DNA from: Kitasatospora sp. NBC_00374
GTDB taxonomy: Bacteria > Actinomycetota > Actinomycetes > Streptomycetales > Streptomycetaceae
Direction: 5' to 3'
Length of the DNA stretch: 64,000 nt
Assembly (NCBI RefSeq): GCF_041434935.1
Contig: NZ_CP107964.1
Location: 2,108,001 to 2,172,000 of the forward strand
Within the stretch, counting starts at the first letter, position 1; each line of letters opens with the position of its first letter. A model generated the notes under the pieces. That model made no database searches. It was not told the DNA's origin and saw only the letters and a program-made list of their open reading frames with translations. Position numbers and translations under genes: made by a program. Positions 5,096 to 58,718 of this stretch are shown piece after piece.

Positions 5096-5908
5096 TCAGC
5101 CGGCCCGGGAACGGCCGCGGCGCGGGGGCAGCGGGAGGAAGCCGCTGGTGCGGGCCGCGTAGTCGGCCCAGCCTGGTTTGCGTTCACTCAGCTGCCGTTC
5201 CAGCAGGGGTTTTCCGCTGCCGAAGGCGAGCAGCCAGGTCATCAGGAGCACGCCGGGCAGGCAGGCCCAGCCGATCGGGGCCTGGGCCGCGAACAGGAAC
5301 AAGCCCCACCAGACGCAGGCGTCGCCGAAGTAGTTGGGGTGGCGGGTGTACCGCCACAGGCCGCGGTCCATGACCAGCCCCCGGTTGGCCGGGTCGGCCT
5401 TGAAGCGGGTCAGCTGCCGGTCGCCGACCGCCTCGAAGAACAGGCCGACCGCCCACAGGGCGGTGCCCGCGAAGGCGAGCGGTCCGAGCCGGTCCGGCAG
5501 GTACTGGGCGGCCTGGACGGGCAGCGAGACGAACCAGAGGATCCCCGTCTGCAGCAGGTACACCTTCCGCAGGGCGTACCACCCCCGGGAGCCCGCGGGC
5601 GCCCTGGCGAGCATGGCCGCGTAGCGCGGGTCCTCGTCGGCGCCGCGGGAGCGCCGGGCGATGTGGGCGGACAGCCGCGCTCCCCAGACCAGCACCAGCG
5701 CGGTGACCAGGGCGCGGCGCCCGGCGTCGCCGTGGCCGGCCGACAGGCCGTAGCCGGTCAGGGCGACCGCGGCGAAGCCCAGGCCCCAGGCGACGTCGAC
5801 GCCGCGGTGCCGGCCGGTCCGCAGGCCGACCGCGAACGCGGCGAGCATGACGGCGAGCGCCGCGGCCAGGGCGGCCGCGAGGTTGACCGCGAAGGCGCCG
5901 CCGTTCAC
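5096..5908 (-). CDS. DUF1295 membrane protein (steroid 5-alpha-reductase-like)
   Basis: About 270 residues with six or more membrane helices. The C-terminal region carries the family pattern RYTRHPNYFGDACVWWG and a final KPGWADYAARTSGFLP. GTG 5908 overlaps the upstream stop as GTGA, like every other junction in this operon; GTG 5917 is an alternative start. The family is related to steroid reductases and isoprenylcysteine methyltransferases, and membrane lipid reduction or modification is likely. Its place at the end of a CFA-synthase operon next to sigK matches Rv0446c, the DUF1295 gene of the mycobacterial sigK cluster. Confidence 0.85.
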   Translation of the reverse strand: MNGGAFAVNLAAALAAALAVMLAAFAVGLRTGRHRGVDVAWGLGFAAVALTGYGLSAGHGDAGRRALVTALVLVWGARLSAHIARRSRGADEDPRYAAMLARAPAGSRGWYALRKVYLLQTGILWFVSLPVQAAQYLPDRLGPLAFAGTALWAVGLFFEAVGDRQLTRFKADPANRGLVMDRGLWRYTRHPNYFGDACVWWGLFLFAAQAPIGWACLPGVLLMTWLLAFGSGKPLLERQLSERKPGWADYAARTSGFLPLPPRRGRSRAG

Positions 5909-6189
5909 CGGTACCACTGCGCGGGGGTGGCCGTGAGGGCTGCGGAACCGTCCGGGGCGGGGCGGACGGCGAGGATCTGGTCGACGCCCGTCCGGCGCTG
6001 CGCGAAGGCCTGCGAACTGCCCACCAGGTAGAGCCGCCAGAGCCGGAAGGCCGGAACGCCGACCAGGGCGACGAACTCCGCCCGGCGTTCCTCCAGGGTG
6101 CGTCGCCAGGCGTCGATGGTGCGGGCGTAGTGCTCGCGCAGGGCCTCGGCCTGGCGGAGTTCGAGCCGGGCCGCCGCGGCGGTGGTCAT
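5905..6189 (-). pseudogene. truncated second CFA-synthase-like methyltransferase (C-terminal remnant)
   Basis: The 94-residue frame starts at ATG 6189, overlapping the upstream stop by 4 nt. After about 15 residues (MTTAAAARLELRQAE) it goes directly into ALREHYARTIDAWRRTLEER and later FRLWRLYLVGSSQAF and VDQILAVRP. These are the last 75 residues of the cyclopropane-fatty-acid synthase family. The SAM-binding core is entirely missing, so it cannot be a methyltransferase. It looks like a second paralog reduced by an internal deletion that kept its start and its coupling to the neighbours. It could still have an accessory role; the frame itself is intact. Confidence 0.6.
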
Positions 6190-7475
6190 CGGCGGGCCCC
6201 CTCGCGGGTGAGGAGCAGCTGCTGGACGTCCAGGTAGCCGGTGCGGAAGCCGGCCTCGGAGTACGCCAGGTAGAGCTCCCACATGCGGCGGAAGACCTGG
6301 TCGAAGCCGAGGTCGGCGACCTCGTCGGCCCGCTCGGTGAAGCGTTCGCGCCACAGCCGCAGGGTCTCGGCGTAGTGCGGGCCGTAGGGCCGGCAGTACG
6401 TCAGGTGCAGGCCGGTGCAGCGGTCGGCGGTCTGGGCGATGGCCCGGACGGAGGGGATCAGGCCGCCGGGGAAGATGTACTTGAGGATCCAGGTGTACGT
6501 CTCGCTGCTGGCGAGCATCCGTTCGTGCGGCATGGTGATGGCCTGCAGGGCGGCCCGGCCGCCGGGGGCGAGCACCCGGTCGATGGTGCTGAAGTAGGCG
6601 GGCCAGAACGGCCGTCCGACCGCCTCGATCATCTCCACGCTGACCACCGCGTCGTACTCGCCGTCGGCGGCGCGGTAGTCGCACAGCCGGACCTCGGCCC
6701 GGTCGCTCCGGCCGGCGTCGGCGATCCGCCCCCGGGCCAGGGCGAGTTGCTCCTCGGACAGGGTCAGGCTGACCACCCGGGCGCCGCGGGCGGCGGCCCG
6801 CAGGGCGAGTTCGCCCCAGCCGGTGCCGATCTCCAGCACGCGGGTGCCGGGGCCGACCCGGGCGAGGTCGAGCAGTTGGTCGATCTTCTTGTGCTGGGCC
6901 GCCGGCAGGCTGCCCCAGTCGGCCTCGGGGAGGCCGTCGGCGCCGGTGGGGAAGACGGCCGAGGAGTAGGTCATGGTCGGGTCGAGGAAGAGCGCGAACA
7001 GCTCGTTGGAGAGGTCGTAGTGGCGGCTGATGTTGCGCCGGGCGTTGGCGGTCGAGGGCTGCTCGGCCTCGGGCTGGCGCTGCACGTAGAGCCGCCGCAG
7101 CCACTGGGCGCCGGTCGGCACCAGGGTCTCGGGGGCGGTGGCGAGTTCGGTGAGCAGGGCGACCAGGTCGGGTGAGTCCCAGTCGCCGGCCTGGTAGGAC
7201 TCGCCGAAGCCGATCAGTCCGGTGGCGCCGATCCGGTGGAAGAAGGCGTCCGGCCGGTTCAGGGTGAGCACGGGCGCGCCGGGGCCGGCGGGTACGAGCA
7301 CGCTCCCGCCGGGCAGTTCGACCCGCAGGCCGCGCCGGCGGGCGACCCGGCGCAGCAGGCGTTCGGCCACGGCGGCCCGCAGCGGGACCTCGGGGACGCG
7401 GGCGACGTCGGGCCAGCGCCGGGCGTCGACGGGGACCGGCCGGTGGTGGACGGGTCGGAAGGCTTGCTGGGTCAC
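6186..7475 (-). CDS. CFA-synthase family SAM-dependent fatty-acyl methyltransferase (UfaA1-like)
   Basis: The 429-residue protein starts at GTG 7475 (VTQQAFRPVHH), overlapping the DUF1365 stop as GTGA. Family marks are HYDLSNELFALFLDPTMTYSS near residue 150, the SAM loop VLEIGTGWGELALRA near 210, SVEMIEAVG, and the C-terminal FRRMWELYLAYSEAGFRTG. These enzymes methylate or cyclopropanate the double bond of an acyl chain in a phospholipid using SAM. In the sigK cluster of mycobacteria the equivalent gene is ufaA1. Together with the FAD, DUF1365 and DUF1295 genes it probably makes a modified branched or cyclic fatty acid. The exact product is not readable. Confidence 0.88.
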   Translation of the reverse strand: MTQQAFRPVHHRPVPVDARRWPDVARVPEVPLRAAVAERLLRRVARRRGLRVELPGGSVLVPAGPGAPVLTLNRPDAFFHRIGATGLIGFGESYQAGDWDSPDLVALLTELATAPETLVPTGAQWLRRLYVQRQPEAEQPSTANARRNISRHYDLSNELFALFLDPTMTYSSAVFPTGADGLPEADWGSLPAAQHKKIDQLLDLARVGPGTRVLEIGTGWGELALRAAARGARVVSLTLSEEQLALARGRIADAGRSDRAEVRLCDYRAADGEYDAVVSVEMIEAVGRPFWPAYFSTIDRVLAPGGRAALQAITMPHERMLASSETYTWILKYIFPGGLIPSVRAIAQTADRCTGLHLTYCRPYGPHYAETLRLWRERFTERADEVADLGFDQVFRRMWELYLAYSEAGFRTGYLDVQQLLLTREGARR

Positions 7476-8236
7476 GGGAGAGGTACCTCTTCCTTGGCCT
7501 GGGGCCGGGCGGGACGGGGCTGGACGGGCAGTCCGCGCAGCAGCAGCCGGATGCCCTGGTAGCGGATGTTCAGGGAGACGGCGAGGGTGGCGAAGGGGCG
7601 CCGCAGGACGGCGCGCAGCAGGGCGGCGGGGCCGGCGGGGGTACGGGTGGCGTGCACGGTGGCGGTGAACGGGCGCCCGCCCTCGCGTTCCAGCTGGATC
7701 GTCAGGTCGAGTCGCTCGCCGGGTCGGGGCAGGCGCATCCGGTAGGCGCCGTCCACCGGGAAGAACGGGGAGACGTAGAACTCCTTGGCGGCGTCGGCGT
7801 GGCCGTCGGCGTCGGGGTGCAGCAGGTAGCGGTGGTGGCCGCCGTACGTGTTGTGCACCTCGGCGACGGTGCAGGCGGGGCGTCCGTCCGGGGTGTGGCA
7901 CCAGTAGACGGTGATCGGGTTGAAGACGTGGCCGAGCGAGCGGGCCTGGGTGAGCATCAGGACCCGGCCGCCGGCCAGGTCGACGCCTTCGCCGGCCAGG
8001 TAGTGGTCGAGGTTCCGGCGCAGGGTGAGCCGGGGGTCGCCGGGGTGGTCGGCGGTCCGGAACCGCGCCAGCGGGCGCAGCAGGACGGGCAGCCGGGGCA
8101 GGGCGTCGAGGTCGACCAGCCAGAGCAGGCCGCGGTGGCGGAAGGCGTGCCGCAGGGGGGCGGTCCGTACGTGGGTGGTGGTGCTGTCGTACAGCGCCGC
8201 GCCCCACGGCCCGGGCAGTGGTGCGGCGGGGGTCAT
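7472..8236 (-). CDS. DUF1365 family protein
   Basis: 254 residues, starting at ATG 8236 with an ATGA overlap with the upstream FAD gene and a GTGA overlap with the downstream methyltransferase gene. Family features include an N-terminal ALYDSTTTHVRTAPLRHAFR segment, FNPITVYWCH and VAEVHNTYGGHHRYLL. The molecular function of DUF1365 is not established. It is nearly always found between an FAD amine-oxidase-like protein and a CFA-synthase-like enzyme, as here and in Rv0448c. Participation in acyl-chain modification is therefore inferred from context. Confidence 0.85.
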   Translation of the reverse strand: MTPAAPLPGPWGAALYDSTTTHVRTAPLRHAFRHRGLLWLVDLDALPRLPVLLRPLARFRTADHPGDPRLTLRRNLDHYLAGEGVDLAGGRVLMLTQARSLGHVFNPITVYWCHTPDGRPACTVAEVHNTYGGHHRYLLHPDADGHADAAKEFYVSPFFPVDGAYRMRLPRPGERLDLTIQLEREGGRPFTATVHATRTPAGPAALLRAVLRRPFATLAVSLNIRYQGIRLLLRGLPVQPRPARPQAKEEVPLP

Positions 8237-9576
8237 CGTCCGGTCACCCCGGCGGTCACCCCGGCGAGGGCCTCGGCGGCGGCGAGGCCGGAGCGGCAGC
8301 CGTCCTCGTGGAAGCCCCAGCCGTGGTAGGCGCCGGCGAACGCGGTCCGGCCGGTGTTGAGTTCGGGCAGGCGGCGCTGGGCGGCGAGGGCCTGTCGCGT
8401 GTAGACGGGGTGCTCGTAGACGGTGCGGGAGAGCACGTGTTCGTCGGCGATCGGCCGGGCCGGGTCCTCGTTGAGGGTGACCAGGTAGTGCTCGGCGGTG
8501 TCCAGGCCGAGCAGCCGGTTGAGGTGGTAGCTGACCTGGACCTGGTCGGCGCTGCCGGTGCAGTCCGGCATCCGGTAGTTCCAGGAGGCGCGGGCCCAGA
8601 CGGCGCGGGGCAGGTGGGAGGCGTCGCGGTGCAGCACGGTGGGGTTGCGGGAGTAGTGGATGGCGCCGAGGAGTTCGCGTTCGGCGGTGCTGGGGTTGGC
8701 GAGCAGGGCGAGGGCCTGGTCGGGGTGGGTGGCGACGACCACGGCGTCGGTCTCGGTGCGGCGGCCGTCCTCGGTGATCACCTGGGCGCCGTCGGGGTGC
8801 CGGAAGACGGCCCGGACGGGGGCGCCGCGGTGAACGGCGGTCAGCCGTTCGGCGATCTTCGCCACGTAGCTGCGGGAGCCGCCGACCACCGTGCGCCAGG
8901 TGGGCGAGCCGGTGACGCTGAGCATCCCGTGGTTGTCGAGGAAGGCGAACAGGTAGCGGGCCGGGTAGTCGCCGGCCAGGTCCGGGGCGCAGGACCAGAC
9001 GGCGGAGACCACCGGCGTCATGAAGTGGCTGACGAAGTACGGGGAGAAGCCGTTGGCGGCGAGGAACTCACGCAGGGTCGGATCGCCCGCCTCCGGGTCG
9101 GCGAGCAGCCGCCGGGCCCGGCGGTGGAAGACCGGGACCTCGGTGAGCATCCGCAGGTAGCGGCCGCGCAGCGGGGAGGTGGGCTGGGCGAGCAGCCCGG
9201 CCGGGCCGCGGGAGCCCGCGTACTCCAGGCCGCAGCCGTCGCACCGCACCGACATGCTCATCTCGCTCTCGCGGGTCTCGACCCCGAGCTCCGCGAACAG
9301 CTGCACCAGGTGGGGGTACGTGCGGCGGTTGTGCACCAGGAACCCGGTGTCCAGCGGGACGGCACGGCCGTCGGCGCCGATCGCGTCCTGGGTGTGGGCG
9401 TGGCCGCCGAGCCGGTCGTCCGCCTCGAACAGCTCGACCTCGGCGCCGGTGCGCCGCAGTCGGTACGCGGCGGTGAGCCCGGCGACGCCGCTGCCGATCA
9501 CGGCGATCCGGCGTGGCCCGCCGGCCCTGCGGCCGGCGGGGATCCTGGCTGCCCGGGCGGTCTCCGGCATGGTCAC
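8233..9576 (-). CDS. FAD-dependent (amine-oxidase-like) oxidoreductase of the sigK/CFA operon
   Basis: About 447 residues from GTG 9576, or 445 from ATG 9570. The GTG is preferred: AGGGG lies 6 nt upstream and it overlaps a small leader ORF stop as GTGA. The dinucleotide fold IAVIGSGVAGLTAAYRL and the FAD-binding ELFEADDRLGGHAHT appear near the N-terminus, and a C-terminal GAYHGWGFHEDGCRSGLAAAEAL closes the FAD domain. The protein resembles Rv0449c and the NAD(P)-binding oxidoreductases that accompany CFA synthases. It probably reduces or desaturates the acyl intermediate. It heads a five-gene coupled operon behind a SigK-type promoter at 9644-9671. Confidence 0.85.
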   Translation of the reverse strand: MTMPETARAARIPAGRRAGGPRRIAVIGSGVAGLTAAYRLRRTGAEVELFEADDRLGGHAHTQDAIGADGRAVPLDTGFLVHNRRTYPHLVQLFAELGVETRESEMSMSVRCDGCGLEYAGSRGPAGLLAQPTSPLRGRYLRMLTEVPVFHRRARRLLADPEAGDPTLREFLAANGFSPYFVSHFMTPVVSAVWSCAPDLAGDYPARYLFAFLDNHGMLSVTGSPTWRTVVGGSRSYVAKIAERLTAVHRGAPVRAVFRHPDGAQVITEDGRRTETDAVVVATHPDQALALLANPSTAERELLGAIHYSRNPTVLHRDASHLPRAVWARASWNYRMPDCTGSADQVQVSYHLNRLLGLDTAEHYLVTLNEDPARPIADEHVLSRTVYEHPVYTRQALAAQRRLPELNTGRTAFAGAYHGWGFHEDGCRSGLAAAEALAGVTAGVTGR

Positions 9577-9643: not shown

Positions 9644-9671
9644 ATTCGGAGCACACGGGGGAACGGATTGG
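9644..9671 (-). promoter_or_regulatory. SigK-type promoter of the lipid-modification operon
   Basis: On the minus strand CCAATCC (9671-9665), 15 bp, CCGAAT (9649-9644). The pattern is close to the mycobacterial SigK consensus CCATCC/CCGAAT and recurs at three other places in this locus. Confidence 0.6.
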
Positions 9672-9703
9672 TGGCCTCGGTCAGGGGCTCACCCGACGGT
9701 CGG

Positions 9704-10456
9704 TCAGGTGAAGTCGAGGAGCATCATCGGGGCGCCGGTCGGATGCGCGGAGCCGCCCGCCGGTTCGACCGTCACACCGATGCCCGCCGCGCCGTGGATG
9801 CCGCCGGCGAGCAGCAGCGAGCCGTCCGGGCCGGGCAGCAGTCCGGCCGGGCGCATGGTGCCCTCGTCGTTGAACCAGACCTCGTACGCCTTGTCGGCCG
9901 GCAGGGCCGGCAGCCCGGAGGCGAGGAACCCGGCCTGACCGAGGCTCTGCGACCAGACCACCGTGCCGACGCCGCCGGCGGCCGTGGCGGTGCTGGTGCG
10001 GGCGTCGGGTGCGGTGAGCAGGGTGCTGAAGCGGGCCTGCTGCTGCTGGAGGACGGCGGCCTCGGCCTTGGCCTGCTCGGCCTGGTCGTGCTGCTGGTAC
10101 GCGAGGCCGCCCAGCGCGGCCGCGACGGCCACGGAGGCGGCCAGCGCGAGCTTGGGCCACTGGCGGGCCAGGCGGCCGGGGCGGCGGCCGGCGCCGTCCT
10201 GGTCCGGCTCCGAGGAGGCCGGGGCGAGCTGGCGGACGGTACCGATCCCGGCCAGCACCCGGGCCTTCAGCTCGGCGGGCGGCACGACGGCCTCGGCCGA
10301 GCCCAGCCGGGCCAGCGTGGCGGTGAACTCGCGGACCTCCTGCGCGCAGGCCGGGCACTGCGCCAGGTGCTCTTCGAAGGCGTGGCGTTCGGCCTCGCCG
10401 AGGGCGTGGGCCGCGTAGGCGCCGGTGAGTGTGTGCAGATCGGCGGTGGTCGTCAT
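9704..10456 (-). CDS. rskA: anti-sigma-K factor RskA-like
   Basis: 250 residues, with ATG 10456 overlapping the sigK stop (ATGA). The N-terminal anti-sigma domain has the zinc-type motif HLAQCPACAQEV near residue 30. One membrane helix (LALAASVAVAAALGGLAY) near residue 105-125 is followed by an extracellular RskA C-terminal domain (AYEVWFNDEGTMRPAGLL). Such proteins hold the sigma factor at the membrane until regulated proteolysis releases it. Overlap with sigK fits the usual partner arrangement. Confidence 0.9.
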   Translation of the reverse strand: MTTTADLHTLTGAYAAHALGEAERHAFEEHLAQCPACAQEVREFTATLARLGSAEAVVPPAELKARVLAGIGTVRQLAPASSEPDQDGAGRRPGRLARQWPKLALAASVAVAAALGGLAYQQHDQAEQAKAEAAVLQQQQARFSTLLTAPDARTSTATAAGGVGTVVWSQSLGQAGFLASGLPALPADKAYEVWFNDEGTMRPAGLLPGPDGSLLLAGGIHGAAGIGVTVEPAGGSAHPTGAPMMLLDFT

Positions 10457-11037
10457 GATCCCACCCCCAGGCAGTCGCGCAGCCGGATCAGGGCGTCGCG
10501 CATACGGGTCTTGACGGTGCCCAGCGGCGATCCGAGCATGTCGGCGACCTCCCGGTAGGAGTAGCCCCGGTAGTACGCCATGGTGACCGACTCCCGCTGG
10601 AGCTCGGTCAGGCCCTGCAGACAGCGCCGGACCTGCTCGCGTTCGAGCCGGCCCTCGACCTGTTCGGCGACCTCGTCGAAGGCGGGGGCGTGCGACCGGG
10701 CGGCGGCCCGCTGGTCGCGGTCGGCGGCCGCCTGGGCGGCCCGGACCCGGTCGACGGCGCGGCGGTGCGCCATGGTCAGCACCCAGGGCATCACCTCGCC
10801 GCGCTCCGGCCGGTACCGGGAGGCGGTGCGCCAGACCTCCAGCAGCACCTCCTGGGCGACCTCCTCGGACTGGGCGGGGTCGCGCAGCACGCGGCGGATC
10901 AGCCCGAGCACCGGGCCGGCCACCGCGTCGTACAGGCGGCTGAACGCGTCCTGGTCCCCGAACGCGACCCTGGCGACGAGTTCCTGCAGGTCGGGTCCGC
11001 GCCGGTGCGGCCCGGAGAGGTGGACGACGGTGTTCAC
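10453..11037 (-). CDS. sigK: ECF sigma factor SigK-like
   Basis: The 194-residue form starts at GTG 11037 (VNTVVHLSG) behind GGAGG. Region 2 is visible (DAFSRLYDAVAGPVLGLIRR, then SEEVAQEVLLEVWRTASRYRPERG) and region 4 ends with YSYREVADMLGSPLGTVKTRMRDAL. Gene order with rskA, FAD, DUF1365, CFA, DUF1295 and the nearby fasciclin lipoprotein matches the SigK system of mycobacteria. A second in-frame GTG at 11184 falls 6 nt after the -10 box of its own promoter and would add a Pro-rich extension of 49 residues. The promoter upstream has the same pattern as its presumed targets, so autoregulation is likely. Confidence 0.9.
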   Translation of the reverse strand: MNTVVHLSGPHRRGPDLQELVARVAFGDQDAFSRLYDAVAGPVLGLIRRVLRDPAQSEEVAQEVLLEVWRTASRYRPERGEVMPWVLTMAHRRAVDRVRAAQAAADRDQRAAARSHAPAFDEVAEQVEGRLEREQVRRCLQGLTELQRESVTMAYYRGYSYREVADMLGSPLGTVKTRMRDALIRLRDCLGVGS

Positions 11038-11189
11038 CAGGCCACCTCCGGGCAACGGACGGCGGCCCGGGCCACCGGTCGCGGCGGACGGGCCCGGAGC
11101 GGGTCCATCGGGTGGGCGGCTGGCATCAGGGACCTCCGGGAGGACGGCGGGGCGCGGCCGGCTGCTCCGCGGAGCACCCGGCACCGGTT

Positions 11190-11217
11190 GTTCGGAGCGG
11201 GATCCGGGACGGATTGG
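11190..11217 (-). promoter_or_regulatory. SigK-type promoter of sigK (autoregulatory)
   Basis: Minus strand CCAATCC (11217-11211), 15 bp, CCGAAC (11195-11190). A 12-nt palindrome GCTCCGCGGAGC (11164-11175) lies just inside the predicted transcript. Confidence 0.6.
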
Positions 11218-11281
11218 TGCCGTGGCCCGGATATTTCGTCCGATCATGGACCCGGTGGGCCGCGTCTGCCCCGAAATCCCA

Positions 11282-11309
11282 CCAATCACCTGCCTGCCGG
11301 GCGACGAAT
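11282..11309 (+). promoter_or_regulatory. SigK-type promoter upstream of SDR-DUF2867 gene
   Basis: CCAATCA (11282-11288), 15 bp, ACGAAT (11304-11309), with the same spacing as the other three sites. It points towards the SDR gene, leaving a 5' leader of about 250 nt in which I found no further ORF with a good start. A direct repeat TCACCCGCGTT occurs at 11519 and 11535 just before the ribosome site. Confidence 0.45.
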
Positions 11310-11566
11310 CAGGTATCTGGACGTCCGGGCCTCCACCGTGCCCGACCGGCTGGCCGCCGCGGCGGACTTCCAGGAGGCTGGGGTACGAGGTGCCCTTCCA
11401 TCTGTCCCCGGTTCATGCTCACCCGCGACCAGGAACCGCACCACGTCAACCTGGGCCGGCACCCGAGAGCTGGTCGAACGGCACGCGCCGTGACTGCGGA
11501 GTCGGTACGCGTTCCAGCTCACCCGCGTTCCACTTCACCCGCGTTACCAGTGCATCGGGAGACGAG

Positions 11567-13060
11567 ATGACCGACGAACCCACCGGCGGCAGGCTCTGCC
11601 TGGTCACCGGCGCGACCGGTTACATCGGCGGGCGGCTCGTCCCCGAGCTGCTGGCCGCCGGCCACCGGGTCCGCTGCCTGGTCCGCGACCCCGGACGGAT
11701 CCGCGACTACCCGTGGCGGGCGGAGGTGGACACCGCGAGGGCGGACGTCACCCGCCCCGAGACGCTGGCCGGCGTGTTCGACGGCGTCCAGGTCGCCTAC
11801 TACCTGGTGCACTCGCTCGGCACCGGCCCGACCTTCGAGGAGCGCGACCGCGCCGCCGCCCGGGCCTTCGGGGACGCCGCCGCCCGGGCCGGCGTGCGCC
11901 GGATCGTCTACCTCGGCGGGCTGGTGCCGCCCGGTGTCCCGCCCGACTCGCTCTCCCCGCATCTGCGCTCGCGCGCGGAGGTGGGCCGGCTGCTGCGGGA
12001 GAGCGGCGTCCCGACGGCCGAACTGCGTGCCGCCGTGATCATCGGCTCCGGCTCGGCCTCGTTCGAGATGCTCCGCCACCTCACCGAGCGACTGCCCGTG
12101 ATGGTCACGCCGAACTGGGTGGACACCCGGATCCAGCCGATCGCCGTCCGGGACGTGCTGCGCTACCTGGTCGGGGCCGCCGCACTGCCGCCCGAGGTCA
12201 ACCGGCCGTTCGACATCGGCGGGCCGGACGTGCTGACGTACCGCGAGATGATGCTCCGCTACGCCCGGATCGCCGACCTGCCGAAGCGCCTGATCCTCCC
12301 GGTGCCCGTCCTCACCCCGCGGCTGTCCAGCCACTGGGTCGGCCTGGTCACCCCGGTCCCCCACTCGATCGCCCGGCCGCTGGTGGAGTCGCTGCGGCAC
12401 GAGGTGGTCTGCCGGGAGCACGACCTCGCCGCGTACGTCCCCGACCCGCCCGGCGGGCTGGTCGGCTTCGAGCAGTCCGTCCGGCTGGCCCTCAAGCGGA
12501 TCCAGGACGCCGAGGTGACCACCCGTTGGTCCTCCGCCTCGCTGGCCGGCGCGCCCAGCGACCCGCTGCCGACCGACCCCGACTGGGCCGGCGGCAGCCT
12601 GTACGAGGACGTCAAGGAACGCGAGGTCTCGGCCGCCCCCGAGTCGGTCTGGCGGGTGGTCGAGAGCATCGGCGGCGAGAACGGCTGGTACTCCTTCCCG
12701 CTTGCCTGGGCCGTGCGCGGTTGGCTCGACCGGCTGGTCGGCGGGGTCGGCCTGCGCCGCGGCCGGCGCGACCCGGAGCGGCTGCGGGTCGGCGACTCGC
12801 TGGACTTCTGGCGGGTGGAGGAGATCGAACCGGTCGGTCTGCTGCGGCTGCGCGCCGAGATGCGGCTGCCCGGGCTGGCCTGGCTGGAACTGCGGGTCGA
12901 CGACGACGGGTACGGCGGCACCATCTACCGGCAGCGGGCCCTGTTCCATCCGCACGGGCTGGCCGGGCACGCGTACTGGTGGTCCGTCGCCCCGTTCCAC
13001 TCCTTCGTGTTCGGCGGCATGGCGCGCAACATCACCGAACGGGCCCGGCTGCTTCCGTGA
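11567..13060 (+). CDS. SDR-type NAD(P)-binding protein with C-terminal DUF2867 domain
   Basis: 497 residues from ATG 11567, with GGGAGACGAG just upstream. The N-terminal half is an extended SDR/NmrA-like Rossmann domain (LVTGATGYIGGRLVPELLAAGH). The C-terminal part from about residue 345 is DUF2867, a helix-grip-like domain (REVSAAPESVWRVVESIGG, then FWRVEEIEPVGLLRLRAEM). The two-domain form is common in actinobacteria, but its reaction is not established. It lies divergent from sigK with a SigK-type promoter, so it is probably a regulon member involved in redox or lipid chemistry. Confidence 0.82.
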   Translation: MTDEPTGGRLCLVTGATGYIGGRLVPELLAAGHRVRCLVRDPGRIRDYPWRAEVDTARADVTRPETLAGVFDGVQVAYYLVHSLGTGPTFEERDRAAARAFGDAAARAGVRRIVYLGGLVPPGVPPDSLSPHLRSRAEVGRLLRESGVPTAELRAAVIIGSGSASFEMLRHLTERLPVMVTPNWVDTRIQPIAVRDVLRYLVGAAALPPEVNRPFDIGGPDVLTYREMMLRYARIADLPKRLILPVPVLTPRLSSHWVGLVTPVPHSIARPLVESLRHEVVCREHDLAAYVPDPPGGLVGFEQSVRLALKRIQDAEVTTRWSSASLAGAPSDPLPTDPDWAGGSLYEDVKEREVSAAPESVWRVVESIGGENGWYSFPLAWAVRGWLDRLVGGVGLRRGRRDPERLRVGDSLDFWRVEEIEPVGLLRLRAEMRLPGLAWLELRVDDDGYGGTIYRQRALFHPHGLAGHAYWWSVAPFHSFVFGGMARNITERARLLP

Positions 13061-13169
13061 GCCCGTGTCCGTGAACTTCGTTCGGGGCGCTCCGACTTCC
13101 CGCCGCAGGCCGTCAACCAGGCACGATACGAGGCGCGTTCACTCGCCCGAGTGAGAGTGGAAATCCGCA

Positions 13170-13197
13170 CCCATCCGCTCGCCCCACCGCACCGAAT
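13170..13197 (+). promoter_or_regulatory. SigK-type promoter of the molybdopterin oxidoreductase gene
   Basis: CCCATCC (13170-13176), 15 bp, CCGAAT (13192-13197). This is the closest match to the mycobacterial SigK consensus. It ends 7 bp before GTG 13205, so the mRNA should be leaderless. A small hairpin CACTCG-CC-CGAGTG (13140-13153) lies just upstream. Confidence 0.65.
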
Positions 13198-13204
13198 GCA
13201 GGAC

Positions 13205-14800
13205 GTGAGCACCCAGACGTCCACCCCGAACCCGGCACCCGCCGCCGTTCCCCGCAGCCGCCGCAGCCGGCCGGCACGCGCGGCCGCCGCCGCGGGAACG
13301 GGACTGGCGGCAGCCGCCGCGGCCGTCGGGGCGGGCGAGCTCGTCGCCGCCTTCACCGGCCCGGACAGCGCGCCGGTGATCGCCGTCGGCTCCGCCGCCA
13401 TCGACCTGACGCCGACCCCGCTCAAGGAGTACGCCGTCCGGACGTTCGGCACCAACGACAAACCGGTGCTGCTCGGCGGGATCTACCTGACCATGACGGC
13501 GCTGGCCGCCCTGGCCGGCGTGGTGGCCGCCCGGCGTCCCGCGTTCGGTGCGGCGGTGTTCGCGGCGTTCGGCGCACTCGGCGCCTTGGCGGCACTGTCA
13601 CGGCCCACCGCCATCCCGGTCGACGCGCTGCCCTCGGTGGTGGCGGGGCTGGTGGGCGCGGGCGCGATGGTGCTGCTGGCCCGGCTGCTGCGCACGGCGA
13701 CCACCGTGCCCGCACCCGAGCCGGCCGGTCCGAGCCGGCGCGCCGTCCTGGCCGCCACCGGTGGCACGGTCGCCTTCGCGGCGCTGTCCGGCTTCGGCGG
13801 CCGCTCGTACTCCGACAGCCGCACCGACGTGAGCGCCGCCCGGGACGCCGTCCGACTGCCCGCCCCCGCCACCCGGTCGGCGCCGCCGCCGGCCGCGGCC
13901 CACCCCGGGGTGCCCGGCCTGACCTCCTTCCAGACCCCCAACCCGGACTTCTACCGGGTCGACACCGCCCTCACCCTCCCGAAGATCGATCCCCGCCACT
14001 GGACCCTGCGGCTGCACGGCCTCGTCGACCACCCTGTGGTGATCAGCTTCGACGAGCTGCTGAAGCGGCCGCTCCAGGAACTGGACTACACCCTCACCTG
14101 CGTCTCCAACGAGGTCGGCGGCCCGTACGCGTCCACCGCCCGGTGGCTCGGCGTCTCCCTGCCCGACCTGCTCCGGCAGGCCGGAGTCCGGTCCGGCGCC
14201 GACCAGTTGGTGGGCCGTTCCAAGGACGGCATGACCATCGGCACGCCGCTGGACGCGCTGCTCGACGGCCGGGACGCCCTGCTCGCCGTCGCGATGAACG
14301 GCGAGGTGCTGCCGGTCGCGCACGGCTTCCCCTGCCGCACCCTGGTGCCCGGCCTGTACGGGTACACCTCCGCCACCAAGTGGCTGGTCGACCTGGAGGT
14401 GACCACCTTCGCCGGGTACGACGCCTACTGGGTCGAGCGCGGCTGGGACCGTACCGGCACCGTCCGCACCGCTTCCCGGATCGAGGTCCCGGCGGCCTTC
14501 GCCAAGGTGCCCGCCGGGGACGTGACGGTCGCCGGCACCGCCTGGGCCACCCATCGCGGCATCGCGGCGGTGGAGGTCCGGGTGGACGGCGGGCCGTGGG
14601 CCGAGGCACGGCTGGCCGCCGACGCCGGGCCCGACCTCTGGCGGCAGTGGAGCCACGACTGGACGGGGGCCCGGCCCGGCACCCACCGGATCGAGGTCCG
14701 CGCCACCGACGCCGGCGGAGCCGTCCAGCCCGAGGCCAGAGCGGCCCCCTTCCCCGCCGGAGCCACCGGCTGGCACTCGACGGTGGTCACCGTCACCTGA
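13205..14800 (+). CDS. membrane-anchored molybdopterin-dependent oxidoreductase (sulfite-oxidase fold)
   Basis: GTG 13205 is chosen because the SigK-type -10 box ends 8 bp upstream; ATG 13196 would overlap that box. The 531-residue product has several membrane helices in the first 160 residues. It is followed by a sulfite-oxidase-type Moco domain with the molybdenum-ligand cysteine in LTCVSNEVGG (Cys299) and PCRTLVPGLYGYTSATKWL. A C-terminal Mo-co dimerisation (Ig-like) domain has VRVDGGPWAEARL. It is likely an extracytoplasmic oxidoreductase; the substrate is unknown. The fasciclin gene follows 84 bp downstream. Confidence 0.87.
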   Translation: MSTQTSTPNPAPAAVPRSRRSRPARAAAAAGTGLAAAAAAVGAGELVAAFTGPDSAPVIAVGSAAIDLTPTPLKEYAVRTFGTNDKPVLLGGIYLTMTALAALAGVVAARRPAFGAAVFAAFGALGALAALSRPTAIPVDALPSVVAGLVGAGAMVLLARLLRTATTVPAPEPAGPSRRAVLAATGGTVAFAALSGFGGRSYSDSRTDVSAARDAVRLPAPATRSAPPPAAAHPGVPGLTSFQTPNPDFYRVDTALTLPKIDPRHWTLRLHGLVDHPVVISFDELLKRPLQELDYTLTCVSNEVGGPYASTARWLGVSLPDLLRQAGVRSGADQLVGRSKDGMTIGTPLDALLDGRDALLAVAMNGEVLPVAHGFPCRTLVPGLYGYTSATKWLVDLEVTTFAGYDAYWVERGWDRTGTVRTASRIEVPAAFAKVPAGDVTVAGTAWATHRGIAAVEVRVDGGPWAEARLAADAGPDLWRQWSHDWTGARPGTHRIEVRATDAGGAVQPEARAAPFPAGATGWHSTVVTVT

Positions 14801-14884: not shown

Positions 14885-15544
14885 ATGTCCGTCACCCGCA
14901 CCCGGTCCGTCGCCGCCCTGCTCGCCGCCGGCGCGCTCGCCTTCGGCCTCACCGCCTGCAGCAGCGGCAGCGACACCTCGTCCAACTACGCCTCGTCCGG
15001 CGTGGCTTCCTCGGCCCCCTCCGCCGCCGCGGCCGCGGCCGCGCCGAAGACCGCCCCCGCCGCCGCGGTGGACGCGCCGTTCGGCACCGCCTGTGCGGCC
15101 GTGCCGAAGGACGGCTCGGGCAGCTTCGCCGGGATGGCCCAGGACCCGGTCGCCACCGCCGCCTCCCACAACCCGCTGCTGTCCACCCTGGTCAGCGCGG
15201 TCACCGCGGCCGGGCTGGGCGACACCCTCAACTCCGCGCAGAACATCACCGTGTTCGCGCCGACCAACGACGCGTTCGCCAAGGTCCCCGCCGACCAGCT
15301 GAAGGCGCTGCTGGCCGACAAGGACAAGCTGACCAAGGTGCTGACCTACCACGTGGTGCCCGACCGCCTCGCCCCCGCCTCGCTGGCCGGCTCCCACAAG
15401 ACGCTGGAGGGCGCCGACGTGAAGGTGGCCGGCTCCGGCGCGGCCTACACCGTCAACAACAACTCCAAGGTGCTGTGCGGCAACGTCCAGACCGCCAACG
15501 CCACCGTGTACATCGTCGACACCGTGCTGATGCCGGCCTCCTGA
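14885..15544 (+). CDS. fasciclin-domain lipoprotein (MPT70/MPT83-like)
   Basis: 219 residues from ATG 14885 behind AAGGAG. A lipoprotein signal ends in LTAC near residue 25, followed by a Ser/Ala-rich linker. One FAS1 domain is clear (NITVFAPTNDAFAKVPADQL, TYHVVPDRL and NATVYIVDTVLMP at the end). MPT70 and MPT83 are the best-known SigK targets in the tuberculosis complex, so its position three genes from sigK is significant. No SigK-type box is seen directly upstream, so it is probably read from the molybdopterin gene promoter. It is likely a surface adhesion or matrix protein. Confidence 0.9.
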   Translation: MSVTRTRSVAALLAAGALAFGLTACSSGSDTSSNYASSGVASSAPSAAAAAAAPKTAPAAAVDAPFGTACAAVPKDGSGSFAGMAQDPVATAASHNPLLSTLVSAVTAAGLGDTLNSAQNITVFAPTNDAFAKVPADQLKALLADKDKLTKVLTYHVVPDRLAPASLAGSHKTLEGADVKVAGSGAAYTVNNNSKVLCGNVQTANATVYIVDTVLMPAS

Positions 15545-57465: not shown

Positions 57466-58137
57466 TCAGACCTGGAGCGGGACGGACACCAGCAGCTGCT
57501 TGCCGTCCAGGGTGCGGACCTCGAAGTGGTCGATCTCGGACGGCTGCAGGGCCGCCCCGCCGGAGGTCTGCAGGGCCGCGTCGGCGCCGTAGCCGGTCGG
57601 CGGGACGGACCAGCTGGTGACGGTCTGCCGCTCGCCGGCCCGCGAGACGGCGATCAGGTCGCACTGCTTCGGGCCCTGGACGTTGGAGAGGGCCAGGCTG
57701 ACCTGGCTGCCCCACTTCTTCTGGGTGACCCCGACGGTGGCGGAGACCCCGGTGGTGGGGTCGGTGGCACTGAACTGCTGGGCGGCCACGGCGGCGGGCT
57801 TGTCCTCGTGGGTCACGGCCAGCGTCACGGCCGGGCCGCCGATCACCAGCACGGCCGCGGCGGCGACCAGGAACAGCCGGCGGGTACGGGTGCGCCGGCG
57901 GGCCGCGGAGACCTCGTCCACGAGCCGGCCGAGCAGGTGGTCGCTCGGCTGCTCCAGGACCGGTCCGGCCTCGACGAGTTCGGCGAGCAGCGGTTCCAGG
58001 CCGCCGAGTTCGTCCATCTCGGCGCTGCAGCGCGGGCAGCCGGCCAGGTGCGCCTCGAACCGCAGCCGGTCGGCGGGGTCGAGCACGCCGAGGACGTACG
58101 CGCCGACGTCGAGGTGCTCGTCCTGATGCGACGTCAC
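57466..58137 (-). CDS. zinc-type anti-sigma factor of the ECF pair
   Basis: 223 residues from GTG 58137, overlapping the sigma gene stop as GTGA. The N-terminal ZAS motif HLAGCPRCSAEMDEL near residue 30 contacts the sigma factor, one membrane helix (RLFLVAAAAVLVIGGPAVTL) lies near residue 95, and an extracellular domain with WGSQVSLALSNVQGPKQCD follows. It is of the RslA/RskA type. Confidence 0.88.
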   Translation of the reverse strand: MTSHQDEHLDVGAYVLGVLDPADRLRFEAHLAGCPRCSAEMDELGGLEPLLAELVEAGPVLEQPSDHLLGRLVDEVSAARRRTRTRRLFLVAAAAVLVIGGPAVTLAVTHEDKPAAVAAQQFSATDPTTGVSATVGVTQKKWGSQVSLALSNVQGPKQCDLIAVSRAGERQTVTSWSVPPTGYGADAALQTSGGAALQPSEIDHFEVRTLDGKQLLVSVPLQV

Positions 58138-58718
58138 GGTGTCACTCCTCGCTCCTCCAGCGCGATCTTCAGCGCACGCAGGGCGTAGAAGATCCTGGAC
58201 CGGACTGTGCCTGCTGGGATGCCGAGCTCGGCTGCCGCCTCATTGACCGTACAGCCTTTCAGGTAGGTGGCGACGATGACCTCACGGTGGGCATGGCTGA
58301 GGTCGTCGAGCGCGTCGGAGATGGTCATCAGTCGTAGCGCCTTTTCGAGTTCGTCCTCGGCGGGCAGCAGTTCGAGCGGTGACGGGTCGACCTCGCGCGG
58401 GCGGGCCAGACTGCTGCGGTGACCGTCGATGACGATCCGCCGGGCGACCGTCACCAGCCAGGGGCGGACCGAACCGTGGTCGACGTCCAGGCGGTGGATG
58501 TTGCGCCAGGCCCTGACCAGGGTCTCCTGCACGACGTCCTCCGCCCGCTGCCGATCGCCCGCGACCAGTCGCAGGACGAAGCCGAACAGCGGGCCGGCGT
58601 GGTCGCGGTAGAGCGTCCGCATCAGCTCCTCGTCCGGCCCCGGGCCTGTCGGCGGCCCGCCGTCGGACAACCGTCCGGCGGCGCGGGGAAGGTCGGTCAC
58701 GGTGCCATCCTTGCGCAC
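58134..58718 (-). CDS. ECF sigma factor (SigL-like)
   Basis: 194 residues from GTG 58718, 6 nt after AGGAGG. Region 2 contains DHAGPLFGFVLRLVAGDRQR and VVQETLVRAWRNIHRLD; SVRPWLVTVARRIVIDGHR is typical of the mycobacterial SigL branch. Region 4 is LKGCTVNEAAAELGIPAGTVRSRI. With the overlapping anti-sigma factor it forms a second membrane-signalling pair in this window besides SigK/RskA. Confidence 0.9.
   Translation of the reverse strand: MRKDGTVTDLPRAAGRLSDGGPPTGPGPDEELMRTLYRDHAGPLFGFVLRLVAGDRQRAEDVVQETLVRAWRNIHRLDVDHGSVRPWLVTVARRIVIDGHRSSLARPREVDPSPLELLPAEDELEKALRLMTISDALDDLSHAHREVIVATYLKGCTVNEAAAELGIPAGTVRSRIFYALRALKIALEERGVTP

Follow-up and report, generated by a model that had tools for sequence, protein, structure and literature searches.

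A conserved promoter element points to an autoregulated SigK-RskA regulon in Kitasatospora sp. NBC_00374

Results

Genes and promoter elements of the locus

In a 64,000-nucleotide stretch of Kitasatospora sp. NBC_00374 (contig NZ_CP107964.1, positions 2,108,001 to 2,172,000; hereafter the window, in whose own numbering positions are given), a gene for a SigK-type extracytoplasmic function (ECF) sigma factor lies beside a gene for an RskA-type anti-sigma factor, a lipid operon and a molybdopterin oxidoreductase gene. A bipartite element, CCMATCC-N15-MCGAAY, stands before several of these genes. An earlier note on this DNA had named rskA, FAD, DUF1365, CFA, DUF1295 and fasciclin genes as the gene content of the locus, and Pfam and NCBIfam searches confirm it. 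The sigK gene (10453..11037, minus strand) encodes 194 aa and scores 289.9 bits against NCBIfam NF007228 (cut-off 226). The rskA frame (9704..10456, minus strand) overlaps that of sigK and encodes 250 aa with RskA_C and RskA_N domains (PF10099, 85.8 bits, cut-off 29.4; PF22618, 27.6 bits, cut-off 27); an HxxxCxxC zinc-type motif can be read in its sequence.

Domain searches identify four further genes on the minus strand: a flavin adenine dinucleotide (FAD) amine-oxidase-type protein (8233..9576), a DUF1365 protein of the UfaO family (7472..8236; PMC7380195), a CFA/CMAS methyltransferase of 429 aa (6186..7475) and a DUF1295 membrane protein (5096..5908). By its domain and the gene order, the FAD protein is probably UfaD-like. 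The domain types of UfaD, UfaO and UfaM (FAD, DUF1365 and CFA-type) all occur in one operon of the window, a likeness at the level of domain type. The CFA gene is not broken, as its frame holds the whole CMAS domain. Just past it, a 94-aa frame (5905-6189, minus strand) matches the final 70 positions of the CMAS profile (204-273) once more, possibly as a result of a partial tandem duplication. The plus strand carries a decayed remnant of a spore photoproduct lyase (SPL)-family gene (PF20903; 11311..11514), a gene of 497 aa joining a short-chain dehydrogenase/reductase (SDR)-type NAD-binding domain to DUF2867 (11567..13060), an Oxidored_molyb protein of the sulfite-oxidase type (13205..14800; nearest models SoxC/SorA, with scores below their cut-offs) and a fasciclin-domain gene (14885..15544), the SDR-DUF2867 and fasciclin genes being assigned by domain search. 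Farther off, two frames at 57466-58718 (minus strand) resemble, on visual inspection, another pair of ECF sigma and anti-sigma genes.

Exact matches to the element number three in the window and none in 100 shuffled windows. The earlier note had listed four copies with identical spacing; three of them are exact, and the fourth is a degenerate form with one mismatch. On the minus strand, P1 (9644..9671; CCAATCCG...GTGCTCCGAAT) precedes the FAD-DUF1365-CFA-DUF1295 operon and P2 (11190..11217) precedes sigK-rskA. On the plus strand, P3 (11282..11309) is the degenerate copy and P4 (13170..13197) precedes the molybdopterin gene. The genome-wide scan that the note had proposed gives 8 exact matches in the 9.2 Mb of the home genome, against 0 for a reversed control. 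Three of the eight fall within 3.6 kb at the sigK locus. Two of the remaining five are one sequence in two copies (L001 and L008), which lie inside a gene, in opposite orientation, near both ends of contig C1; this suggests a terminal inverted repeat.

Spacing and consensus of the element in relatives

The window was compared with 220 other sigK loci. Of these, 60 belong to the same genus and 20 to a second genus in the family; 60 are drawn from 21 further families of the class, and 80 are titled mycobacterial-type loci. The titled set was found with mycobacterial SigK and consists of 75 loci of Mycobacterium or Mycolicibacterium, 2 of Mycobacteriaceae and 3 from metagenome-assembled genomes named 'Actinomycetes'; M. 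tuberculosis itself is not included. The core form of the element, CMATCC-N16-CGAA, was counted as CMATCC-Ns-CGAA at each spacing s from 10 to 23, with the -35 half reversed as a control. Close relatives among the genomes do not count as independent cases, and the counts are unweighted by family.

A single spacing dominates. The 45 genus loci with a high-scoring SigK hold 98 sites at s=16 and 0-6 at any other spacing, and the 15 lower-scoring genus loci hold 11 at s=16 against 0-3 elsewhere. The second genus gives 21 sites at s=16 against 0-1. In the 60 loci of the other families there are 71 at s=16 against 0-11 (the 11 being at s=17), and 19 of the 21 families have at least one site at s=16, several of them by one site only. 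In the genus and class sets the reversed control yields 0-6 sites per spacing (1 and 3 at s=16). The titled mycobacterial-type loci hold 72 sites at s=16 against 1-8 elsewhere. The earlier note had remarked on the likeness to the mycobacterial SigK consensus and had proposed a promoter code conserved between distant actinobacteria. Both points agree with these data, P1, P2 and P4 being exact and the peak at s=16 appearing in the genus, class and titled sets.

Some positions that the search left free are also conserved. In three collections, of 107, 92 and 70 distinct sites, G8 is found in 73-92%, G20 in 82-99% and C21 in 76-87%. The refined consensus is therefore CCMATCCG-N11-GCTCCGAAT.

Genes behind the element and co-occurrence with SigK

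Gene calls were made with a custom codon-based caller, whose starts may be wrong. In the genus loci, with the element sought within 300 bp upstream and genes having under 150 bp of upstream DNA skipped, it precedes 24 of 25 FAD genes, 15 of 18 molybdopterin genes and 39 of 59 annotated sigK genes. Lower counts are found for fasciclin (3/20), SDR-DUF2867 (2/11) and unassigned genes (14/630). No element was found in these loci upstream of rskA (0/49), DUF1365 (0/24), CFA (0/36) or DUF1295 (0/24), all of which are operon-internal in the window.

The other families and the second genus together provide 92 sites. They precede sigK in 28 cases, fasciclin in 14, molybdopterin genes in 11, FAD in 7, DUF1365 and SDR in 2 each, photolyase and rskA in 1 each and other genes in 17; 9 precede no gene. 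The 'other' genes include those for DUF4331, CHRD, SRPBCC-type and CopD proteins. Large DUF4331 proteins lie behind the element in seven loci (L144, L145, L161, L162, L165, L176 and L177; by Pfam in three, by likeness in the rest). The 72 sites of the titled set precede DUF1365 (41), FAD (27), sigK (2), a molybdopterin gene (1) and fasciclin (1).

The element also follows the presence of SigK, taken here as a genome match above the 226-bit cut-off (SigK+). Exact sites per genus genome average 3.30 in 37 SigK+ genomes and 1.21 in 24 SigK- genomes (p ~1e-6), and the genomes without any exact site are 0 and 9, respectively. Among class genomes, 116 of 129 SigK+ have a site, against 41 of 117 SigK-; the SigK- genomes are smaller by eye, and the means differ in the same direction within the four families that hold both states. 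Outside the sigK loci, sites lie upstream of a gene in 37 of 51 cases in SigK+ genomes and in 2 of 11 in SigK- genomes, the sites having been hand-picked among the matches listed, plus L002. Gene identities at such sites come from Pfam for ten proteins (two without a match) and otherwise from sequence likeness by eye. Pfam confirms one each of molybdopterin, fasciclin, photolyase, SPL, TatA, MMPL and ferritin-like genes. In L271, L290 and L305 the element precedes a TatA-like gene that lies outside the sigK locus (Pfam-confirmed in one). These genes are of interest because the regulon holds several probably exported proteins.

Start-codon geometry and the molybdopterin gene

An in-frame ATG or GTG lies exactly 7 nt past the element at 30 of 73 near-start sites (5 sites at the next commonest offset), and 17 of these 30 are molybdopterin genes. 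The window shows this offset of 7 nt at P4, whose last base is 13197, the GTG of the molybdopterin gene being at 13205. The simplest reading of this offset suggests that the transcript is leaderless.

Orthologues of the molybdopterin gene were found in 28 of 37 SigK+ genomes and in 2 of 24 SigK- genomes (p 1.5e-7). Counting one copy per genome and leaving out second copies in three genomes, the element precedes the gene in 25 of the 28 SigK+ genomes and in 0 of the 2 others. For this count the upstream search range was shifted, as twelve of the matches had their first residue 133-173 residues into the protein; the unshifted count is 15/28. One of the three misses, G026, has the element 7 nt before this gene in another locus (L274). 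The molybdoenzyme, which the earlier note had listed as a member, is the firmest new member of the regulon, and a sulfite-oxidase-type enzyme is thereby placed in it. The fasciclin gene downstream (14885..15544) has no exact element of its own by the pattern search of the window and is probably co-transcribed with the molybdopterin gene.

P3 and a lost SPL-family gene

P3 reads CCAATCA...ACGAAT, one mismatch from the pattern. Compared with the refined consensus it is without G8 but keeps G20, C21 and CGAAT. With one mismatch allowed, about 0.5 matches are expected per 64 kb (60 Markov-1 resamples), so that P3 alone is at chance level; with two allowed, 9 matches are found in the window against 8.02 expected. 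The earlier note had taken P3 for the promoter of the SDR-DUF2867 gene. This assignment is not supported in that form: P3 lies 257 bp from the start of that gene, and the element occurs at only 2 of 11 genus and 2 of 7 other SDR-DUF2867 orthologues. An ordinary SDR promoter was rejected because the DNA behind P3 is an SPL-family remnant.

Five relatives have an SPL-family gene between sigK and SDR-DUF2867. In L049, L051 and L064 a single frame covers nearly the whole gene, and in L039 and L047 its frames are split; a sixth relative, L040, has the gene beside sigK, without an SDR call. The remnant in the window begins at 11311, directly after P3. It consists of three short stretches, spread over two frames, that match a relative's protein of 387 aa at residues 248-271, 302-334 and 371-387. 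A search of the home genome for SPL genes gave no match at E <= 1e-60. Because the remnant lies directly downstream of P3 and the gene is intact at the same place in three relatives, P3 is probably the decayed promoter of a lost SPL-family gene. Genomes with an SPL match number 10 of 37 SigK+ and 0 of 24 SigK- (p 0.004), and the core element stands upstream of 5 of the 10 SPL genes (11 rows, one gene being in two pieces). The gene appears split or decayed in L039, L047 and the window, and its loss may be recurrent.

The SigK and RskA proteins

The closest solved structure to the window SigK is 4nqw_A (E 8.7e-50, 172 bits), followed by RpoE 2q1z (E 9.8e-20, 74 bits). We take 4nqw to be M. tuberculosis SigK, an identity that fits a citation in PMC7509140. 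Cys139 and Cys189 are the counterparts of the redox pair Cys133/Cys183 of M. tuberculosis SigK. Within the genus, all 45 high-scoring loci and 4 of 15 lower-scoring ones encode this cysteine pair, as do 43 of 60 loci of other families and all 80 of the titled mycobacterial set. The genus also contains a second SigK-like subfamily (~209-240 bits; for example L098, L094 and L096), often near a photolyase gene, with gaps down to 215 bp.

The HxxxCxxC motif lies close to the N-terminus of RskA in 50 of 50 genus loci, in 20 of 20 loci of the second genus and, for other families, in 38 of 40 (108/110 together), calls of 150 aa or less being left out. It occurs in 0 of 7 Mycobacteriaceae loci (L099, L101-L105 and L108), these being the 7 of 10 that gave a usable RskA. 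The absence of the zinc-type motif from the Mycobacteriaceae proteins examined raises the possibility that the best-studied system is a derived form.

Discussion

SigK as the probable reader of the element

The locus is very probably an autoregulated SigK-RskA regulon, a confidence that rests on sequence comparison and covers the regulon, not its job. The element behaves as a SigK promoter would: its spacing is fixed, it stands before genes, it co-occurs with SigK, and the same code appears in mycobacterial records. In the mechanism that we propose, RskA would hold SigK at the membrane until a signal removes or alters RskA. The released SigK would direct RNA polymerase to CCMATCCG-N11-GCTCCGAAT promoters, and sigK-rskA would amplify itself through P2. 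Three transcription units of the window would then be expressed from such promoters: sigK-rskA, the lipid operon FAD-DUF1365-CFA-DUF1295 and, as a leaderless transcript, the molybdoenzyme gene (with fasciclin).

Several observations weigh against this interpretation. The reversed control is less clean in the titled set, with 10 sites at s=16 and a maximum of 15 at s=19. The Mycobacteriaceae within the class set have a weak peak (8 at s=16 against 10 summed over the 13 other spacings). In addition, 20 of the 59 genus sigK genes lack the element, and only 2 of the 72 sites of the mycobacterial set precede sigK.

The element could be a promoter whose reader is another ECF factor, in place of SigK or beside it, such as a member of the second SigK-like subfamily that occurs in many relatives. 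The frequent position of this group near photolyase genes is consistent with such a reader, as are three photolyases that carry a similar element in genomes without an above-cut-off SigK. The home genome, however, yields just one match to the SigK family at E <= 1e-55, the presence of the element tracks above-cut-off SigK, and the element stands before sigK itself; we consider another reader improbable. It is less probable still, indeed very unlikely, that the element is no sigma promoter but is bound by a transcription factor that evolved together with the locus. A conserved spaced element, taken alone, would fit such a site equally. However, this one is directional, and its halves are arranged like the -35 and -10 of an ECF promoter. 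The start codon that follows after exactly 7 nt in 30 of the 73 near-start cases, as for the -10 elements of leaderless transcripts, favours a promoter over an activator site. Chance matches in a GC-rich window are hardly credible: P3 alone is at chance level, but for P1, P2 and P4 chance is ruled out by the shuffled windows and the spacing peak in relatives.

What the regulon may be for

We tentatively propose, with a little less than even confidence, that SigK serves to defend membrane lipids, envelope proteins and DNA against photo-oxidative damage (light, ultraviolet (UV) radiation and singlet oxygen). DUF1365 is the domain of UfaO, which acts in furan fatty acid synthesis (PMC7380195). 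The singlet-oxygen regulon of RpoE in R. sphaeroides includes CfaS, photolyase, RSP_1090/1091, an SDR and a fasciclin (PMC7074977). UfaO-family, CMAS, photolyase, SPL, SDR and fasciclin genes together match that regulon. Light or UV also affects the system in two actinobacteria: in M. kansasii mpk83 and mpk70, which each have a putative SigK site, go up in light (PMC9861118), and in Nesterenkonia UV-B lowers RskA (PMC8965627). Moreover, at least 14 of 57 genus photolyase matches, among the matches listed and with no formal null, have a SigK-like gene no more than 6.4 kb away.

The link to light is uneven, and the following data count against it. The element before photolyase is patchy (7 of 23 SigK+ but 3 of 7 SigK- genomes, among the best 30 of 51 genomes), and the genome scan found no exact match at the photolyase of the home genome. 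Of the three SigK- cases, G008 falls barely short of the cut-off, with a SigK-like match of 222 bits. In M. kansasii, dipZ, which lies between mpk83 and mpk70, does not respond to light, and the response of the photolyase locus is far stronger than that of mpk83/mpk70 (PMC9861118). Oxidation of the envelope in general would account for a redox-active molybdoenzyme, TatA and ferritin-like members no less than light would, and envelope redox stress of this kind explains most members equally.

The main task of the regulon could instead be general envelope or redox homeostasis (metal, disulfide and sulfur oxidation), a real possibility that we place somewhat short of an even chance. The genes behind the element are consistent with it, as they encode a sulfite-oxidase-type enzyme and TatA, ferritin-like, CopD, DUF4331, CHRD and fasciclin proteins, and the M. 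tuberculosis SigK-RskA system is redox sensitive (PMC7509140). The match to the R. sphaeroides regulon and the effects of light and UV in the two actinobacteria argue for the photo-oxidative task instead. The signal that activates SigK was still unknown according to the text of PMC7509140 (2020), and photo-oxidative stress is a testable candidate. With its consensus defined across the class, the promoter code yields a list of regulon members, and this list points to photo-oxidative stress.

Comparison with known systems

The mycobacterial SigK-RskA regulon comprises sigK, rskA, Rv0446c-Rv0449c and mpt70/mpt83. It shares with the window the sigma and anti-sigma families, neighbouring lipid genes, fasciclin targets and the SigK cysteine pair, and the same -35/-10 and spacing recur in the 80 titled loci. 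In contrast, sigK in the window has its own element, whereas the available text of PMC7509140 describes the mycobacterial sigK promoter as not SigK regulated, with autoregulation through the Rv0449c promoter. The HxxxCxxC motif separates the two groups, and molybdoenzyme, SPL and photolyase targets are added here. The group of M. tuberculosis SigK is given as ECF18 in PMC7509140 and as ECF19 in PMC8965627.

Conservation of SigK sites across actinobacteria is already known in kind: PMC7509140, citing Veyrier 2008 for the conservation, describes the sites as highly conserved in Actinobacteria and present even in Yersinia. What is new here is the refined consensus, the molybdoenzyme, SPL and photolyase members, the leaderless geometry, the contrast in the zinc-type motif of RskA and a gene content like that of the singlet-oxygen regulon of Rhodobacter. 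In the available text of the literature surveyed, we met neither SigK-regulon membership of molybdoenzyme, SPL and photolyase genes, nor the leaderless geometry, nor the RskA motif contrast. Among the matches listed, in a search whose coverage is without most subscription journals, only PMC7074977 brings SigK and singlet oxygen together.

In Nesterenkonia sp. Act20, an actinobacterial RskA falls under UV-B and then recovers, and the authors suggest that SigK coordinates the response; unlike the present data, these are proteome data only and, as far as the available text goes, define neither a promoter nor a regulon (PMC8965627). RpoE/ChrR of R. capsulatus is reported to be induced by singlet oxygen and to resemble the M. 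tuberculosis proteins SigK (34%) and RskA (25%) more closely than RpoE/ChrR of R. sphaeroides. Its host, in contrast, is an alphaproteobacterium, described in the same text as without homologues of RSP_1087-1091 (PMC7074977). The RpoE-ChrR system of R. sphaeroides (ECF11) is alike in its DUF1365/UfaO, UfaD, CFA-type methylase, SDR, photolyase and fasciclin genes (PMC7074977, PMC7380195). Unlike it, the window sigma factor is far better matched by SigK (172 bits for 4nqw against 74 for 2q1z) and its anti-sigma factor has RskA_C. The window system therefore lies outside the RpoE-ChrR (ECF11) group, but it may work similarly. On a wider scale, and a shade more tentatively than for the job of the regulon itself, SigK-RskA across Actinomycetes might be the counterpart of Rhodobacter RpoE-ChrR: a photo-oxidative (light, UV and singlet-oxygen) response with protective, possibly furan-type membrane lipids, repair of UV lesions, guarding of envelope proteins and sensing by a zinc-type RskA, of which mycobacteria would have kept the promoter code and the lipid operon while losing the zinc motif.

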